NCBI GenBank assembly: GCA_028753945.1
Contig: JAPNXP010000006.1
Location: forward strand, 2,170,001-2,234,000
Length of the DNA: 64,000 nt
Origin: Hexactinellida sp. DTS-2022
Taxonomy: Eukaryota; Porifera; Hexactinellida
Direction: 5' to 3'
Part shown: one piece after another, positions 19,096 to 45,396 of the stretch
Numbering within the stretch: position 1 is the first letter of the stretch
Layout: each line of letters starts with the position of its first letter
Made by a program: the position numbers and the translations under genes
Notes under the pieces: model-generated
Databases searched by the model: none
What the model was told of the DNA's origin: nothing
Seen by the model: only the letters and a program-made list of their open reading frames with translations

Positions 19096-21492
19096 AAATG
19101 AATTCAGAAGAATATCAAGAAATTATTCAGTTCCTTCGCGAACAAAAATATCCTAAGACAGTACAAGACTCACGGCAAACAAGATGGAATTGCAAAAGAA
19201 AACTGTCCTCCTATTTCATTGTAGAATCGGACACATTATTCAAGCCTGCAGCAACATGAAAGAGATAACGATGCATTTATGGTAAACAGTTTTCAAGACC
19301 TAATTGAGAAAATCCCAGGACTTATTTTACCAAATAAGTGGATGGTTTGTCATTCTGATATGATTCCCTTCATATATATAAACCCGAGTTCTCAGATCAG
19401 GGAATGAAGATTCAAGCCTGTTTGAAGGTATCTCGCAACCTAAGAATCTTTTCGTTTCGCGATAACCTCAGTATTCCGTTGACGTTGGATGTTTTATCTG
19501 ATATACGACAGATCGAAGAAATTATCCAACAGACTGAAGATTTTTACATTCAAGCAAAATTCTACAAACCCGGACCAGCTTGTTTTTCATATTAATCAGG
19601 CCATTAAGCACGTTAACTTGGCAAAGAAACGGCTCATTTCTAATTCTTCAGACTCAGATGATAGTCCATAAACGGCTTCCTATCTTTCACATCTTCAATT
19701 AATCGAATGCCAATTAGATAATATTCTCCCGAGTAAATTCAAGCGTAGATATAATGTTCTTACTCAGGTACTAATGGCTTTAAAATATCACCTGATCTCT
19801 CCAGCTTGTTACAGATACTTACAGTCACTCGAATGCCTCTCTTTACCACATCCTAAAACTCTTCAAAAACTCTGCTCAAATTTTGGGCTAGAGAATGATT
19901 TTTCAGCATTTCTTATGCAAGCTACCTCTGAGTTTAGCGAAAAGGAAAAGAATATTATTCTTCAACTGGATGAGATACAAGTATATCTAACGTCGATTAT
20001 AAGGGAGGAAAAATATTTGGCTAATCATTGCAACCTGATCACCCGATTAAAACTGTTTTCGCCATAATGGCATCAAGTCTTTATAAAAAGTGGTCAGAAA
20101 TTGTCCGCTTGCTTCCATGCTCTTCTAATTCTGCTACCGAGATTTATACACTGGTCAAGTATGTCATTGGTGACATTGAACGCTGTGGTCTAAAGGATCA
20201 AGTTATCTGTACTGATAACTATCCTCTAAACTTGAACTTTTTCAAACTTTTTTCTTCTGATAAAAAGACTCTGACACCTACTGCTATTCATCCCATTGAT
20301 CCAGAAAGAAAAATCTTCTTAATTTTCGATTTCGTTCATATTATAAAATCAATACGAAACAACTGGATCAATTTGAAAGATTATGAACATACATTTTCTG
20401 ATCCAAACACACTTATTTTTCCGAACCATGAAAATAGCCAACATATGCGTATTGCGAAATTTCAAGATATTCGAATGCTTTACAAAAACGAGCAGAGTTT
20501 AATTATCAAACAGGGTCATCGTTTAACAGCTAAAGCTTGCTGGCCCATAAGTTTAGAGCGTCAAAATGTCAGCCTAGCTTTAAAGATTTTCGACACATCA
20601 ACACTCGCTGCATTATCTATTTACAACTCCGCACGAACAAATTCCGAAACCCAAACAATCGAGTTTCTTGACATTGTTATAAAAGTTTGGAAGATCTTCA
20701 ATGTCAATACATAAGCATATCAGACTTAATGATGATTTTTCCAAACCTCTTACGTGTGATGATTATCGTTTTATTTTTTATACGGCTCATTGTCAATTGG
20801 CTTGCACGATGGCGATCTCGTGAAAATAAACACTGTAAATTGAGTCCCCAAACCTTCACAATTTTCTCTCATTAATGTCTTCCCCTGATTGAAATAGTAA
20901 AACATCTCACTCAAAATTGTGGATTTGATTACGTGCTCACATCACGATTACAAAATGACCCAATCGAACATCATTTTAGTTTGTATCGTATGATGTCTGG
21001 TGTACATAATCACGTTAGTTATTCTCAAATTATTGAAAGTGAACGACGAATCAAGTTATCAAGCATCCTCAAAATATTCTCGAAAAGGAACGATCAGATT
21101 ACGTCAGTTTAAAGGATATGATCGATTCCTGTTCCTCCTCATCTAACGAACCTTCCAATTATGCTTTAAACCTAGATACATACCTCATAGCATTGCAATC
21201 CTTTTCGACCATTACTTTTGATAGTTCACTTCTTCAATCAGTTGCCTTTGTCCGTGGATATGCTGTACACTCGTATTTGAAGCAATCTGTCAAGTGTGAT
21301 ATTTGTATGTCATTGATTACACAGGATAAAGAACTCGAAATCGTTGGTACGGAAGATACTTATGAACTAATCCAACTTATTGACCGAGGTGCTCTCAAAT
21401 GGCCATCTCATATTGTTATAGATGCCATTATTATTGTGTTAAAGATCTTTAATACAATCGAAAATGACGAAACCATAATGCGACGATTTTAA
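19096..21492 (+). pseudogene. P-type (THAP9/P element) transposase, decayed
   Basis: Several open stretches in shifting frames follow the order of P-type transposases. 19096: a short N-terminal region (MNSEEYQEIIQFLREQKYPK). 19774-20040: a segment ending LDEIQVYLTSIIREEKYLA, where the first catalytic Asp is expected. 20028-20714: the longest intact piece, 228 codons, with VICTDNYPLNLNFF and IFLIFDFVHIIKSIRNNW, the RNase H-like and GTP-binding insertion region. About 20930-21060: LTSRLQNDPIEHHFSLYRMM, the conserved motif with the last acidic residue. 21118-21492: the C-terminal region with CDICMSL and LIDRGALKWPSHIV. Frameshifts near 20040, 20715 and 20875 and missing starts show it is dead. 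No THAP zinc finger was identified. Family call is confident. Confidence 0.85.
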
Positions 21493-39401: not shown

Positions 39402-39728
39402 TACTTGTTAGAATCTAAAAATAAACAACAAATAGTATACTATCTGTTAATTGCAAAACCATCAACCAGCACAGACTATGAACTAGGGTTGCCAATCCAA
39501 TCCAATCGAGCCAAATTTGGACAATCGGCAATCCAAATTTCGACAAACAATTATTCGGATGACAATCCAATCGCTATCGACAATCCAAAATATCATCGAT
39601 TTTTTTGGATTGTTTCACCGATTTTTTTCGATCGTTTACTCCTCAGTATTATATCAAAAAGAGTTACCGTATTGCCTTGATTTAAAGCCCCATTTAGGCC
39701 CAAGAAAATGTTATGATTTTCGAGAATG

Positions 39729-42618
39729 CACAGTGGCACGATATGTGGAAATAGGATACAAAATCATAACCTTGGATAGCTTTAGAAGGTTGTTATATTG
39801 GAATTCAGCACCCTCACAAACCTAGGGAAGCAATTGGAATTTCCAAAATAACGTTTCCATTGAGCTCACACGTTTTGAAATGAGGTCATAATTGACATTC
39901 CAAAAATAGTATCTATGGTTTAAAGTTTTAGCCATGATGTAATTTTAAATAATTTAGATTCTTTACGTCAAATATCTGCTATATATAGTATATCAATCGA
40001 AAGCTCTTTTGTTGCTGAATAATATATTACATCATTCGTTACGCCTAAGATGAAATGGAATTTATTATTCTAATTTTAAACATGCTTGTTTGTACAACTG
40101 GTATAAAATGATAGACCGCTTTACAAAAAGTCATAGTACTTATTTTGCCTTCACTTGCGGAACTTTCTTTTGCATTTTTATTTTACCTTATTTTCTGCTC
40201 AACAAAATGCACTTTAAACTACGGTGTCAGGAAGTGTCAACGATATTATTTTTTTCGATTCAAAAATCTCACTTCGTTTATATTTTTCGAAATTTCTCAC
40301 AAAATCATAATAATCTTTTAATAATATTAGCACTATTATGAATAACGAAGATGCATACATATTCTTCACTGCTCGAAAGGACAAACCTATCACCTCAATT
40401 GCGTCCCGAGTTTATTGTCCTGAATAGTTTGGAAGACACTGCGCATGATACAGTTCGGAGAAAATTTTCGAGTCTCAGAGAAGATAGAAGAGAATACTTG
40501 AAGCGAGCAAGAAAATGTTTCCAGTAAGGAACTCTCCTGTTACCTAATGATGCTATGTTCACAGGCTGAATACGACTTTACTAATGCGAAGTTTTGCAAA
40601 GAAATTATCGCTAAGGGAAGCTTCGGACTAGTCTGCAATAAATTGACCTGTGATAAAGCTGCATTCTTAATGGGTTCTTTAGAAATTGGAAAGAAGAAAT
40701 ACATCGATTTAAGACGGTTATTGCTCTCAGATGTCCAGCTTCCTGGTTACAATCGAATAGCTACCCATCGATCTCAAATCTGCTTGACTAATGACATCTT
40801 TCCAGTCAATCGAGACCATCAGGTAGGCATTGGTATATCTTACAACAAGCTTCTGACTCATAAAGTGAACAGAATATTGACTTCTTCTGACATTGACATT
40901 GCCAGCAATCTGAAGATACGAATTTCAGATGGACTTGACGGCTCGGGCTGTCACCGAGTTTACCAGCAAGCCACTCACCCCGAGATATCAACGAAAAGTT
41001 TTATTCTATTCGGGTTTAAGGTAATTTCCATATCCGACATCGAAAACAAACTGATTTGGAAAAACCCACTACCCAATTCTCCTTTCTCAATTCGACCAGT
41101 TGCGATATTAGCTCTTCAGGAAAACGAAGACAATATTCGATTTCTTATGGATACACTAATCAATAGTGAGTCTACCCAGATAGTAGAAGATGGTTTAGTA
41201 TTAACTAGCGGAATTTGTCATGTTGAAATTCAGCGTTCTCAATTGGATGGGAAAATGGCTAAAATTCTTAGTGGAGCTGGAGGCGCATGTTGCCAGTTCT
41301 GCACAGCAACATTCAAACAAATCCATGATCTGGATATGGTGAAAGACGGGTTTCCAATTAATCGATCGATAACAGATGCCAAAGTATTATTTCAAGAGGT
41401 TAACGAAGAGCAATTTCTCTCATTGTCTTCTGACAAAATATTCAACATAACACACAAACCAATATCTGACTTAGACATCAATCCAAGCTCTCCTCTACAC
41501 GCATATCTCCGATGTTTTGGCTGGTTTCTACTTCTTATTAGTAATCTGCACGCAGGTGTATTTAAGTGGTCACCAACTTCTAAGAGAGTCTCAGATGCTA
41601 AAAAATTCATTACAAGTTTAATTAATGACAATTTGAATATTATCATTGACAGCCCTTCAACACAAGGTGGAACTACAACTACTGGTAATGTGGTAAGAAG
41701 ATGTTTGATAAGAAAGGATGACAACTATCAAGATTTCCTCTACTGGATTTTAACAGTGATCCCGTCTGAATTCAAGTCCCACATAATTGAAATTCACACA
41801 TGCCTAGGAGCAATCCTACGTGTCTATAATAGCAGCAAAAGAGTGGATACAGAAGAACTAGCGTTTGTTTGCAGCAAGATCTACCAGTTAATTATTTGTG
41901 AATTCCCTTGGGCTAATGTTTCCCTTACATTACACAAGCTATTAGCGCATGCACCTGAAATCATCTCAACATTCAACGATGGGCATGGACTAGAGAACTT
42001 ATCTGAAGGACTAGCTTCTAACAAATATATACGAAGATACAGAGATCGTCTTGCTCGCAAATTTTCATTTGAAGAAAATTTAAAGGATATATTTGTTAGA
42101 ATGATTTCTCACAGTGATCCCATACTGTTAATGAATCGCAAGTTTCCTATTCGAAAGCCTACCTCGTGCCAGCAACTTAAAAGTAACCAAGATATTCTAG
42201 TAAACAACCTTATTCATAATGATGATGATAATATTGATGATTAATTAACTAAATAATCTTTTTTTGTATGTATTTTCCTTATTCCTTTCTTCAATTGGTA
42301 TTAATAAAAATAAAGTGATATTTCCCCAAACAATTAGTTAAAATTTCCTTCAAAAAATGGTTGATCAATTAGAATAGACACGTAATTAATTTGCAAAACT
42401 TTGAGACACAAATGAGACCAATTATAGTAAATTTGAAAAATGCTAAAAATAGAATGTGTCAATGACGTCATAACTTTAACTTCTGAAGTCGTAGAAAAAA
42501 TCTGATTATACCAATAGATTCTAAAGATACGATTTCCCATAGGTAAATAATATAGTTTAGTGCGCTATCTTTGACCCAAATAGCTACTTCCAGATTATGA
42601 CCATTTCGTGCCACTGTG
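39729..42618 (+). mobile_element. Transib/RAG1-like transposon, structurally complete
   Basis: Both ends read inward CACAGTGGCACGA(T/A)ATG (16 of 17 identical), and the element is flanked by a perfect 5-bp duplication GAATG (39724-39728, 42619-42623). The first seven bases equal the consensus V(D)J recombination signal heptamer, as known for some Transib ends, and 5-bp duplications are characteristic of Transib/RAG transposition. It carries one transposase gene and a polyadenylation-like AATAAA at 42303. No RAG2-like open frame exists inside, which favours Transib over ProtoRAG. Confidence 0.93.
40351..42244 (+). CDS. Transib-type (RAG1-related) transposase
   Basis: The main open frame is 40547-42244 (565 codons from its first ATG). 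It carries the RAG1/Transib core in order: LPGYNR (residues 65-70), first catalytic Asp in ISDGLDGSG (D128), second Asp in SQLDGK (D234), zinc pair CQFC (249-252), PLHAYLRCFGW, the GGTTTTGNVVRR block, zinc pair HKLLAH (463, 468), and catalytic Glu in LSEGLASNKYIRRYR (E487). The enzyme is expected to cut at the CACAGTG ends by nicking and hairpin formation in the nucleus. An upstream open stretch from ATG 40351 (57 codons, RREYLKRARKCF at its end) looks like the N-terminal exon. A donor (GTAAGG, 40524) and acceptor (TTCACAG, ending 40564) are present, but removing those 41 bp leaves the frames out of phase by one. So either the borders differ or there is a frameshift. It is longer and cleaner than any other transposase here. 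Confidence 0.88.
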
Positions 42619-43663
42619 GAATGGCGAATATTTGTGGAATATAATCATCTGAGTGTCAATAATTGTAGGGAGGCGATTAATTGACATCAACGGTTATTCT
42701 AGGCGGTGTCAAAAAATAATTAGGACCTATTTTGGGGGGGGCGATTATTCAAGGGGGGCGATTATTCGAGGGGGGGCTACTATTCAAGGAAATACGGTAT
42801 GTTTCATCATATGATCAAACTTAAAATATATATTATTGGGTATAATTGACGAGCAATCGAGCATTTTAAATTTTGGCATTATTTAGATATGAAAATACAA
42901 ACAATCGGAAAAATCGATGAAAATTCATCGATTGCAATCCAATCGATGAAAAATGCAGCAATCGGCAATCTTCTCGATTAGTTCGATTGGCAACCCTGCT
43001 ATGAACTCAACCAGGCTCCCGAAATTTCAAAAAGTGGAATTTTTCATTTCATTCGAAACTGGACCCAAATTGCAGCACCCTTGCAATCCAAAGAAGTTTA
43101 ATTTTGTTTTTTTATTTTGTTTATATCATTAAGTCTATCAGGAATAATTGGTTAAATCTTAAAATTTAGACAATACATTTATTTCTGTTAATTTTCCTGA
43201 CTTCCAATTACGTGTACAAAAATAATAGTAACGTAAAAGTTTGTATGTCTCTATTTCTAGAGCCAGCATTTAAACCACTCATTTTACCTCTAAATCTCTT
43301 TATCCTAAGCTATGTTAGACAGTGATAGGAGTCTACAGTCAGCCGAACAGTTAAAGGACTACATGCTGCTCATGATCAACTATTCTACGTATGTGTTTAT
43401 ATCTAATGCTGTATTGTTTTTGGCAAATTTTAAATCTTAAATTTATATCCAAATACGATCAGAATTGGGGCTGAATAGTCTTAGATTTTAAAGTATAACA
43501 TTTTTATACATTAAAATAGCACTATATAACAATTAGTAGAAACTTAGAAAACCCATGGTAATTGCCATCCATGGTCCAGTAATTACTAGAGTGTCATTCC
43601 CCTAGGATATAGAATGATATGGCTCTACATAGGTAATTTTCTATACTAAATCATGGTTAGAGG

Positions 43664-44682: not shown

Positions 44683-45396
44683 TTAGATTAATAACTCAAG
44701 GTCACGAGCAAAGTTGTTGAAAGAAAACTTGCTCTTCACATAATGGTGACCGAAATTTCCAAAAGTGACTTTTTGATTATGTATTTCATTATTGACAATT
44801 AAGCTATTCATTGCTTTAGCAAATTCATACTCGCCAGATTCACACAGAATACCAGTTTTCCCATGCAAAACCGTCTCTTTAGGTCCTCCACTATTATGAG
44901 CAATAACTGGTAACTTCATATACATAGCTTCAAGAGGTACAATTCCAAAGTGTTCAAATTCCGGAGTATATAGAAGTGCAAAACTCTTTGAGAGAAGAAA
45001 GTATTTTGCATCAGAAGAAATAGAACGCAAAAAATACACGTTGTTAAGTAAAAGTGATCTACTTAGTTGAACAACATAATCATAATACTGAATATTTTCA
45101 ATAACTCTTTCATCATATCCACCAGCTATTAACAAAGAGCATTTAATCCATTGAGCAGAAGTTAAAGATAGCGTAGAACATCGTGAAGGATCCAATAATT
45201 TAAAAGCTTGAATTGCCAGTGAAATGTTCTTCTTACGTTCATATCTATTGATACTTAAAAAGAGATATTCGTTATTAACTAAATAGGCAAGTGAAGAAGG
45301 TGGTATAGGAGGAACTCGATAGTTGTCAAAATTCAAACAAGGATAAAGTGTTTGTGGTCTAATGTGATTTAAAGTGGGGAAATTCTTCAAAAAAAC
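44683..45396 (-). CDS. ALG2: ALG2 alpha-1,3/1,6-mannosyltransferase, 3' exon
   Basis: The exon encodes about 238 residues ending in a stop. ALG2 adds the second and third mannoses to the dolichol-linked oligosaccharide at the cytosolic face of the ER. Seen here: TLYPCLNF, FLSINRYERKKNISLAIQAF, LLIAGGYDERVIEN, LRSISSDAKYFLL, the GT4 glycosyltransferase motif TPEFEHFGIVPLEAM with its conserved Glu pair, and VIAHNSGGPKETV. These match the C-terminal GT-B domain of ALG2. No ATG opens it: the exon begins after a likely acceptor (TTTTTAG, minus strand, 45397-45403) and reads VFLKNFPTLNH. The N-terminal exons (phosphate-binding GIGGAER-type motif) were not found upstream to 47 kb, so the gene is either long-introned with the rest further right, or partial. 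No frameshift or stop is present. It is the only likely host gene here. Confidence 0.88.
   Translation of the reverse strand, partial: VFLKNFPTLNHIRPQTLYPCLNFDNYRVPPIPPSSLAYLVNNEYLFLSINRYERKKNISLAIQAFKLLDPSRCSTLSLTSAQWIKCSLLIAGGYDERVIENIQYYDYVVQLSRSLLLNNVYFLRSISSDAKYFLLSKSFALLYTPEFEHFGIVPLEAMYMKLPVIAHNSGGPKETVLHGKTGILCESGEYEFAKAMNSLIVNNEIHNQKVTFGNFGHHYVKSKFSFNNFARDLELLI

Follow-up and report, generated by a model that had tools for sequence, protein, structure and literature searches.

Where do the two-part signals of antibody-gene assembly, and the 12/23 rule that goes with them, originate? The question is raised by a Transib transposon in 64 kb of contig JAPNXP010000006.1 from a probable glass sponge; this whole stretch of 64,000 nucleotides is called the window. 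The heptamer CACAGTG marks antibody genes for cutting, and the element carries it at both ends. The most probable reading (about 80%) is that the window element is a disabled cut-and-paste transposon of the Subgroup I type, whose intact relatives use two-part end signals, the spacer being short at one end and long at the other. Its membership of the Transibs is secure. Membership of the family in Subgroup I is likely; one defining feature, the CTT1 motif, is missing in the clade of the window copy. Transib families of this type are known already, and the main point of interest lies in the two-block signals with spacers of 11 and 20 bp. An earlier note on this DNA overlooked the second conserved block and the 11/20 spacing, which are the more informative part.

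Two-block ends and their spacing

What defines the ends of the element? It spans 39729-42618 (2,890 bp) between two copies of GAATG. Ends of the form CACAGTGGCACGA(T/A)ATG lie at 39729 (+) and 42618 (-) in the window, and the inverted termini read CACAGTGGCACGATATG and CACAGTGGCACGAAATG. Terminal CACAGTG, the exact heptamer of the recombination signal sequence (RSS), is present just as the earlier note had claimed, at 39729-39735 (+) and at 42612-42618 (-). Behind the left heptamer, an 11-bp spacer (39736-39746, +) leads to a second conserved block, GGAAATAGG (39747-39755, +), which starts at element base 19. On the right, a 20-bp spacer (42592-42611, -) separates the heptamer from GGAAGTAGC (42583-42591, -), which starts at base 28 of that end. 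An RSS-nonamer interpretation of ACAAAATCA, which lies in the left end, was dropped because this sequence is missing from the right end and the block common to different families is GGAARTAGS. The 12/23-bp spacers and A-rich nonamer of V(D)J signals were not found; 11/20-bp spacers and GGAARTAGS stand in their place.

The same arrangement recurs in the genome, which was searched as 112 Mb in 18 contigs. A 17-base end pattern, CACAGTGGCACGANAYG, has 46 matches there and none when reversed. The two-block pattern CACAGTGG-N(1-19)-GGAARTAG matches exactly twice in the window, once at each element end, with no match in shuffles; in the genome it matches 588 times, and the reversed control has none. 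Because these patterns recur genome-wide with zero control matches and the two-block pattern matches the window only at the element ends, those ends are not a product of chance. Gaps of 10 and 19 are counted after CACAGTGG and correspond to spacers of 11 and 20, counted from the heptamer to the second block. The 19-gap form alone has 237 matches and a stricter 10-gap form 148, each with a control of 0.

How strictly are the two spacings kept, and how are they paired? Among the first 100 of the 588 matches, all on contigs C1 and C2, the gap is 10 (n=52), 19 (n=41), 9 (n=4), 18 (n=2) or 14 (n=1). Twenty neighbouring pairs within 8 kb face inward, and 17 of them combine a gap of 10 with one of 19 (two are 9/19 and one is 10/10); seven more neighbours within 8 kb are not inward-facing. 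When these 100 ends were set against 19 transposase places on C1 and C2, 14 ends stood beside a transposase match: the upstream end was short in 6/6 and the downstream end long in 8/8. A second family, typified by P0033 and with about 45% protein identity, shares CACAGTG and GGAARTAGS with the window element, and in both the block begins at base 19 of the upstream end or base 28 of the downstream end. A P0033-type element (L075, L076) has GGGCA flanking it on both sides.

The earlier note named borders other than CACAGTG in further copies as a finding that would speak against its reading. When CAC and the second block were the only fixed parts of the pattern (173 matches, control 3), CACAGTG was by far the commonest heptamer, in 43 of the 55 ends with letters shown. 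Some copies do differ: L009 has TACAGTG and GACAGTG, L028 has GACAGTG, and the L035 type has CACAATG.

Could the second block be something other than a transposition signal? The element might be an ordinary Transib with an ancestral subterminal repeat at its ends, its spacing inherited and not imposed by the enzyme, and its block read by a different domain or serving as a promoter element. We consider this unlikely, though by no means negligible. The sponge-type proteins form one clade in the tree, which makes a single ancestor likely, and some families without the second block still make 5-bp duplications (L030, TAACC). Yet the spacers themselves are poorly conserved, with a mean identity of 0.335 among 13 short types and 0.415 among 14 long types (hand-collected strings: 32 short, 26 long), while the gap after CACAGTGG is 10 or 19 in 93/100 matches. 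The second block is also present at both ends, whereas a promoter role would account for it at one end only. Since the spacer and end sets were selected by pattern, constancy of the blocks is no evidence here; the gap lengths and the pairing are.

Decay of the window copy and activity of its family

Is the window copy itself still functional? The earlier note described a complete element with a nearly intact gene, and neither description held. By comparison with siblings, the family start codon is the ATG at 40338. The original frame start (MNNEDAYIFFTAR..., 40338-40404, +) runs into an extra base at 40405 that shifts the frame and has no counterpart in the sibling copies L009, L010, and L011. 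A deletion at 40507-40508, 248 bp relative to L011, removes a stretch kept in L009-L013. The lost segment corresponds to codons 57-139 of the sibling frame, which is open over 719 codons in L011, and includes most of a domain (about codons 112-158) resembling the nonamer-binding domain (NBD) of RAG1. What remains is a 565-codon frame (40547-42244, +), the longest in the element and the remnant of the transposase core. A GT-AG intron containing the ATG at 40547 was considered and rejected, as the relatives read through this region.

The earlier note was right about this frame, its D234, and its CQFC and HKLLAH motifs; D128 and E487, which it also listed, are not catalytic residues. It is D131 that aligns with the catalytic Asp of HzTransib and amphioxus RAG1L, and E487 is the Glu of 'SEG'. 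At 42006-42016 (+) two codons have been lost, so that LSEEGLEASNK in L011 reads LSEGLASNK in the window copy, and the gap relative to HzTransib falls exactly on the catalytic Glu. We take the Glu preceding ASNK to be the catalytic residue, from the residue roles in RAG1 and from its alignment with HzTransib. The DDE triad is incomplete, its third residue being deleted; the codons are intact in L009, L010, and L011. Given the lost Glu, the frameshift and the 248-bp deletion, the window copy cannot encode an active transposase.

The family presents a different picture. The window element differs from L009 at 26 of 2,887 aligned bases, from L011 at 28 of 2,889, and from L010 at 125 of 2,866. The divergence of about 1% among three copies supports recent activity of the family, judged from sequence comparison. 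Thus the earlier suggestion of a recently active relative applies to the family, and not to the window copy with its dead transposase.

The perfect 5-bp duplication GAATG reported by the earlier note is confirmed on both sides (39724-39728 and 42619-42623, +). The joined flanks match 40 places (the best 40 of 189 candidates) with 93-96% identity across the junction, and locus L052 shows the target repeat without the insertion and with GAATG present once. Perfect 5-bp duplications were found in six of the 17 end pairs tested, the window included, and 4/5 bases match in three more. In L012 (900-4040), a copy of the duplication CTCAG is set 2 bp (CT) off the left heptamer. Just to the right of the window insertion, at 42728-42789, lie three copies of a 27-nt direct repeat around GGGGGGCGATTATTCAAGG.

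How many such elements does the genome hold? With the window element as query, 75 genome matches were obtained from the best 40 of 161 candidates. One transposase query gave 1045 first-look candidates, 63 of which were scored and yielded 70 matches. Several stop-free frames exceed 700 codons (e.g., C1:2361376-2363505 and C2:2475553-2477682). This load is high compared with the one or few copies typical of autonomous animal Transibs, as stated in a passage of Kapitonov and Koonin 2015 (PMC4411706).

Might these elements belong to a symbiont or contaminant contig and not to sponge DNA? All support for the identity of the host comes from transposon protein matches. However, each of the 18 contigs that make up the 112 Mb carries Transib matches or ends, the named protein matches are all from Oopsacas minuta, and a search of the GTDB prokaryotes with two peptide patterns found no relative. 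We regard a foreign origin as very improbable. Among at least 80 prokaryote and 41 viral stretches matching short patterns, none encodes a relative; a bacterial Transib reported by Tao et al. was neither found nor excluded by this search. Elsewhere in the window, 20028-20714 carries two TNP-like Pfam domains below cut-off, probably the remnant of a P-element type transposase, and a frame at 44683-45390 (-) matches Glycosyltransferase group 1 (Pfam E 2e-28) and is probably a host gene exon.

The transposase and related systems

To which transposases is the encoded protein related? In the PDB, the 565-codon frame matches HzTransib (6pqn, E 9e-21) and amphioxus RAG1L (6b40, E 4e-6); its Pfam RAG1 score of 22 bits is below the cut-off of 25. 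All named proteins among 93 relatives are from Oopsacas minuta (best identity 82%). HzTransib (6pqn, 6pqx) is also the top-ranked solved structure for the models of P0001 and P0033. Its alignment to the P0033 model starts only at residue 164 and does not cover the NBD part, for which 16 of 31 slices were compared.

An unrooted tree of 39 hand-chosen rows and 610 columns, built without an outside family, places 22 sponge-type, 12 RAG1/RAG1L and three HzTransib-type rows each on one side of a branch, and the L011 protein pairs with P0001. The label 'sponge-type' was assigned by similarity: P0001, P0012, and P0032 are from Oopsacas, L011 is from this genome, and 18 are ENA or Logan entries. Within this tree the protein stays among Transib and RAG1 proteins and, with the PDB matches, this bears out the earlier assignment to a Transib with a RAG1-related transposase.

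An alternative is a RAG-like (RAGL) transposon, with RAG1L and RAG2L, that lost RAG2L by deletion and would therefore belong to the RAG1L branch. Two-block asymmetric ends, an NBD-like domain and a CTT1-type motif are all common to RAG1L. We nevertheless judge this origin improbable. With support of 100/100, none of the 22 sponge-type rows belongs to the RAG1/RAG1L clade, and in a P0033-type element (3,010 bp) the transposase takes up 2,130 bp, so that less than 0.9 kb remains for further sequence. No RAG2-like gene was seen between matching ends, and a PF03089 search was empty here and in 14 controls alike, so that it is uninformative. An open-frame scan of the window element found no second frame of more than 110 codons, including any RAG2-like gene.

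According to Tao et al. 2022 (PMC9435367), Subgroup I Transibs carry CTT1 and a counterpart of the NBD, and their two ends are asymmetric. Like these, the sponge elements have a single gene, which encodes the transposase; their two-block ends are asymmetric, and they share the NBD equivalent and a conserved ZnC2-ZnH2 region. A block of about 40 residues between ZnC2 and ZnH2, present in the sponge-type rows of alignment A4 (P0009 is truncated there) and absent in P0092, P0093, and HzTransib, is a candidate equivalent of RAG1 alpha11-alpha12, another mark of Subgroup I. The CTT1-type motif occurs only in part of the sponge family. A looser tail, C-x2-C-x3-(G/N)H-x4-6-C, is found in 11/25 sponge-type A4 rows whose tail is present, and such tails cluster in one sponge-type tree group (P0033, P0038, P0040, P0042, and others) and in the environmental P0088 and P0089. 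On one reading, its absence from the window clade is a loss, as in vertebrate RAG1. The sponge elements depart from the Subgroup I text in their probable glass-sponge host, which is not named there, their exact RSS heptamer, their very high copy number, and the lack of CTT1 in the window clade.

Other systems share some of these features. HzTransib has the same RAG1-like DDE core but lacks the 40-residue block, has no NBD part aligned and forms a separate clade. Transibs with asymmetric ends have been published before: excerpts of the hypothesis paper PMC8355894 describe Drosophila Transib5 and Anopheles Transib2/N1-N3, which like the sponge elements have one short-spacer and one long-spacer end. 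In the insects the spacers measure 12 or 23 +/- 1 bp and the blocks are nonamer-like, whereas those of the sponge are 11/20 with GGAARTAGS, in many families of one genome. AanRAGL of Aureococcus has a 13-bp block, spacers of 4/13 bp and a 10-bp block (PMC9435367). Its second block starts at 18/27, a 9-bp asymmetry equal to that of 19/28 in the sponge elements, but it has RAG2L, the terminal block CACACCCAAACCT and the second block CCTCAAYAYG. According to excerpts of PMC8289069, ProtoRAG spacers are 27/31 and known RAGL ends differ from RSSs; CTT* and RAGL ends were defined in a passage of Martin et al. 2020 (PMC7204232). The main text of the genome paper on Oopsacas (PMC10280926), like that on Aphrocallistes (PMC10282587), does not contain the word Transib. 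Among the publications listed for Transib with sponge, Porifera or Hexactinellida, none describes such elements in its title or the opening of its abstract, and RAG1 with glass sponge gave no match.

End signals and a possible pairing rule

How might intact relatives of the window element move? A RAG1-like DDE transposase would recognise a two-part signal at each end, its core cutting beside CACAGTG and its N-terminal domain, a homologue of the RAG1 NBD, most likely reading GGAARTAGS. A transposase dimer would probably pair, perhaps obligatorily, one end with an 11-bp spacer and one with a 20-bp spacer, and insertion would then make the 5-bp duplication. The window copy keeps both end signals and could presumably move only in trans, with an enzyme from a relative. 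Several observations weigh against a Subgroup I transposon with signals of this kind. Among the exact-heptamer ends of examined loci, the block is at 19 or 28 in 30/58 (0.05 per set in shuffled ends), is missing in 23/58 and lies at base 47 in 5/58, some of them being chance heptamers. Subfamilies of the L029-L034, L036, and L037 type lack the second block, and eight of the 17 end pairs have three or fewer matching duplication bases out of five. L011, with its full-length frame, carries the change HKPLAH, and 688 bases are inserted at its stop. The P0001 model, closest to the window copy, has an NBD-like part of low confidence (pLDDT, the predicted local distance difference test, 50-73), and the best 50 structure matches listed for it do not include 3gna. 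No CTT1 zinc motif (Cx2Cx3GHx4C) is present in the window clade, and the tree is unrooted, with two groups meeting on long branches. The insertion beside the L011 stop carries a repeated TTAA and is perhaps a piggyBac-like element within the Transib.

V(D)J signals with RAG1 and the sponge elements have in common CACAGTG, a two-block signal, a spacer that varies but keeps a fixed length, short/long pairing and an NBD homologue. They differ in that the former have 12/23 spacers and an A-rich nonamer and the latter 11/20 spacers and GGAARTAGS, with no RAG2 seen in the sponge elements. It is a tentative proposal, with odds slightly below even, that the sponge transposons obey an 11/20 pairing rule through an NBD-type domain that reads GGAARTAGS without RAG2; in that case the 12/23 rule would follow a logic that is intrinsic to the RAG1-like transposase and predates the capture of RAG2. 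If this is true, an early-branching animal lineage already had that logic, and the genome holds hundreds of natural test signals. With their exact RSS heptamer, second block and fixed spacers, and with a RAG1-type NBD in single-gene elements, they would make it testable whether asymmetric pairing is a property of the RAG1-like protein alone.
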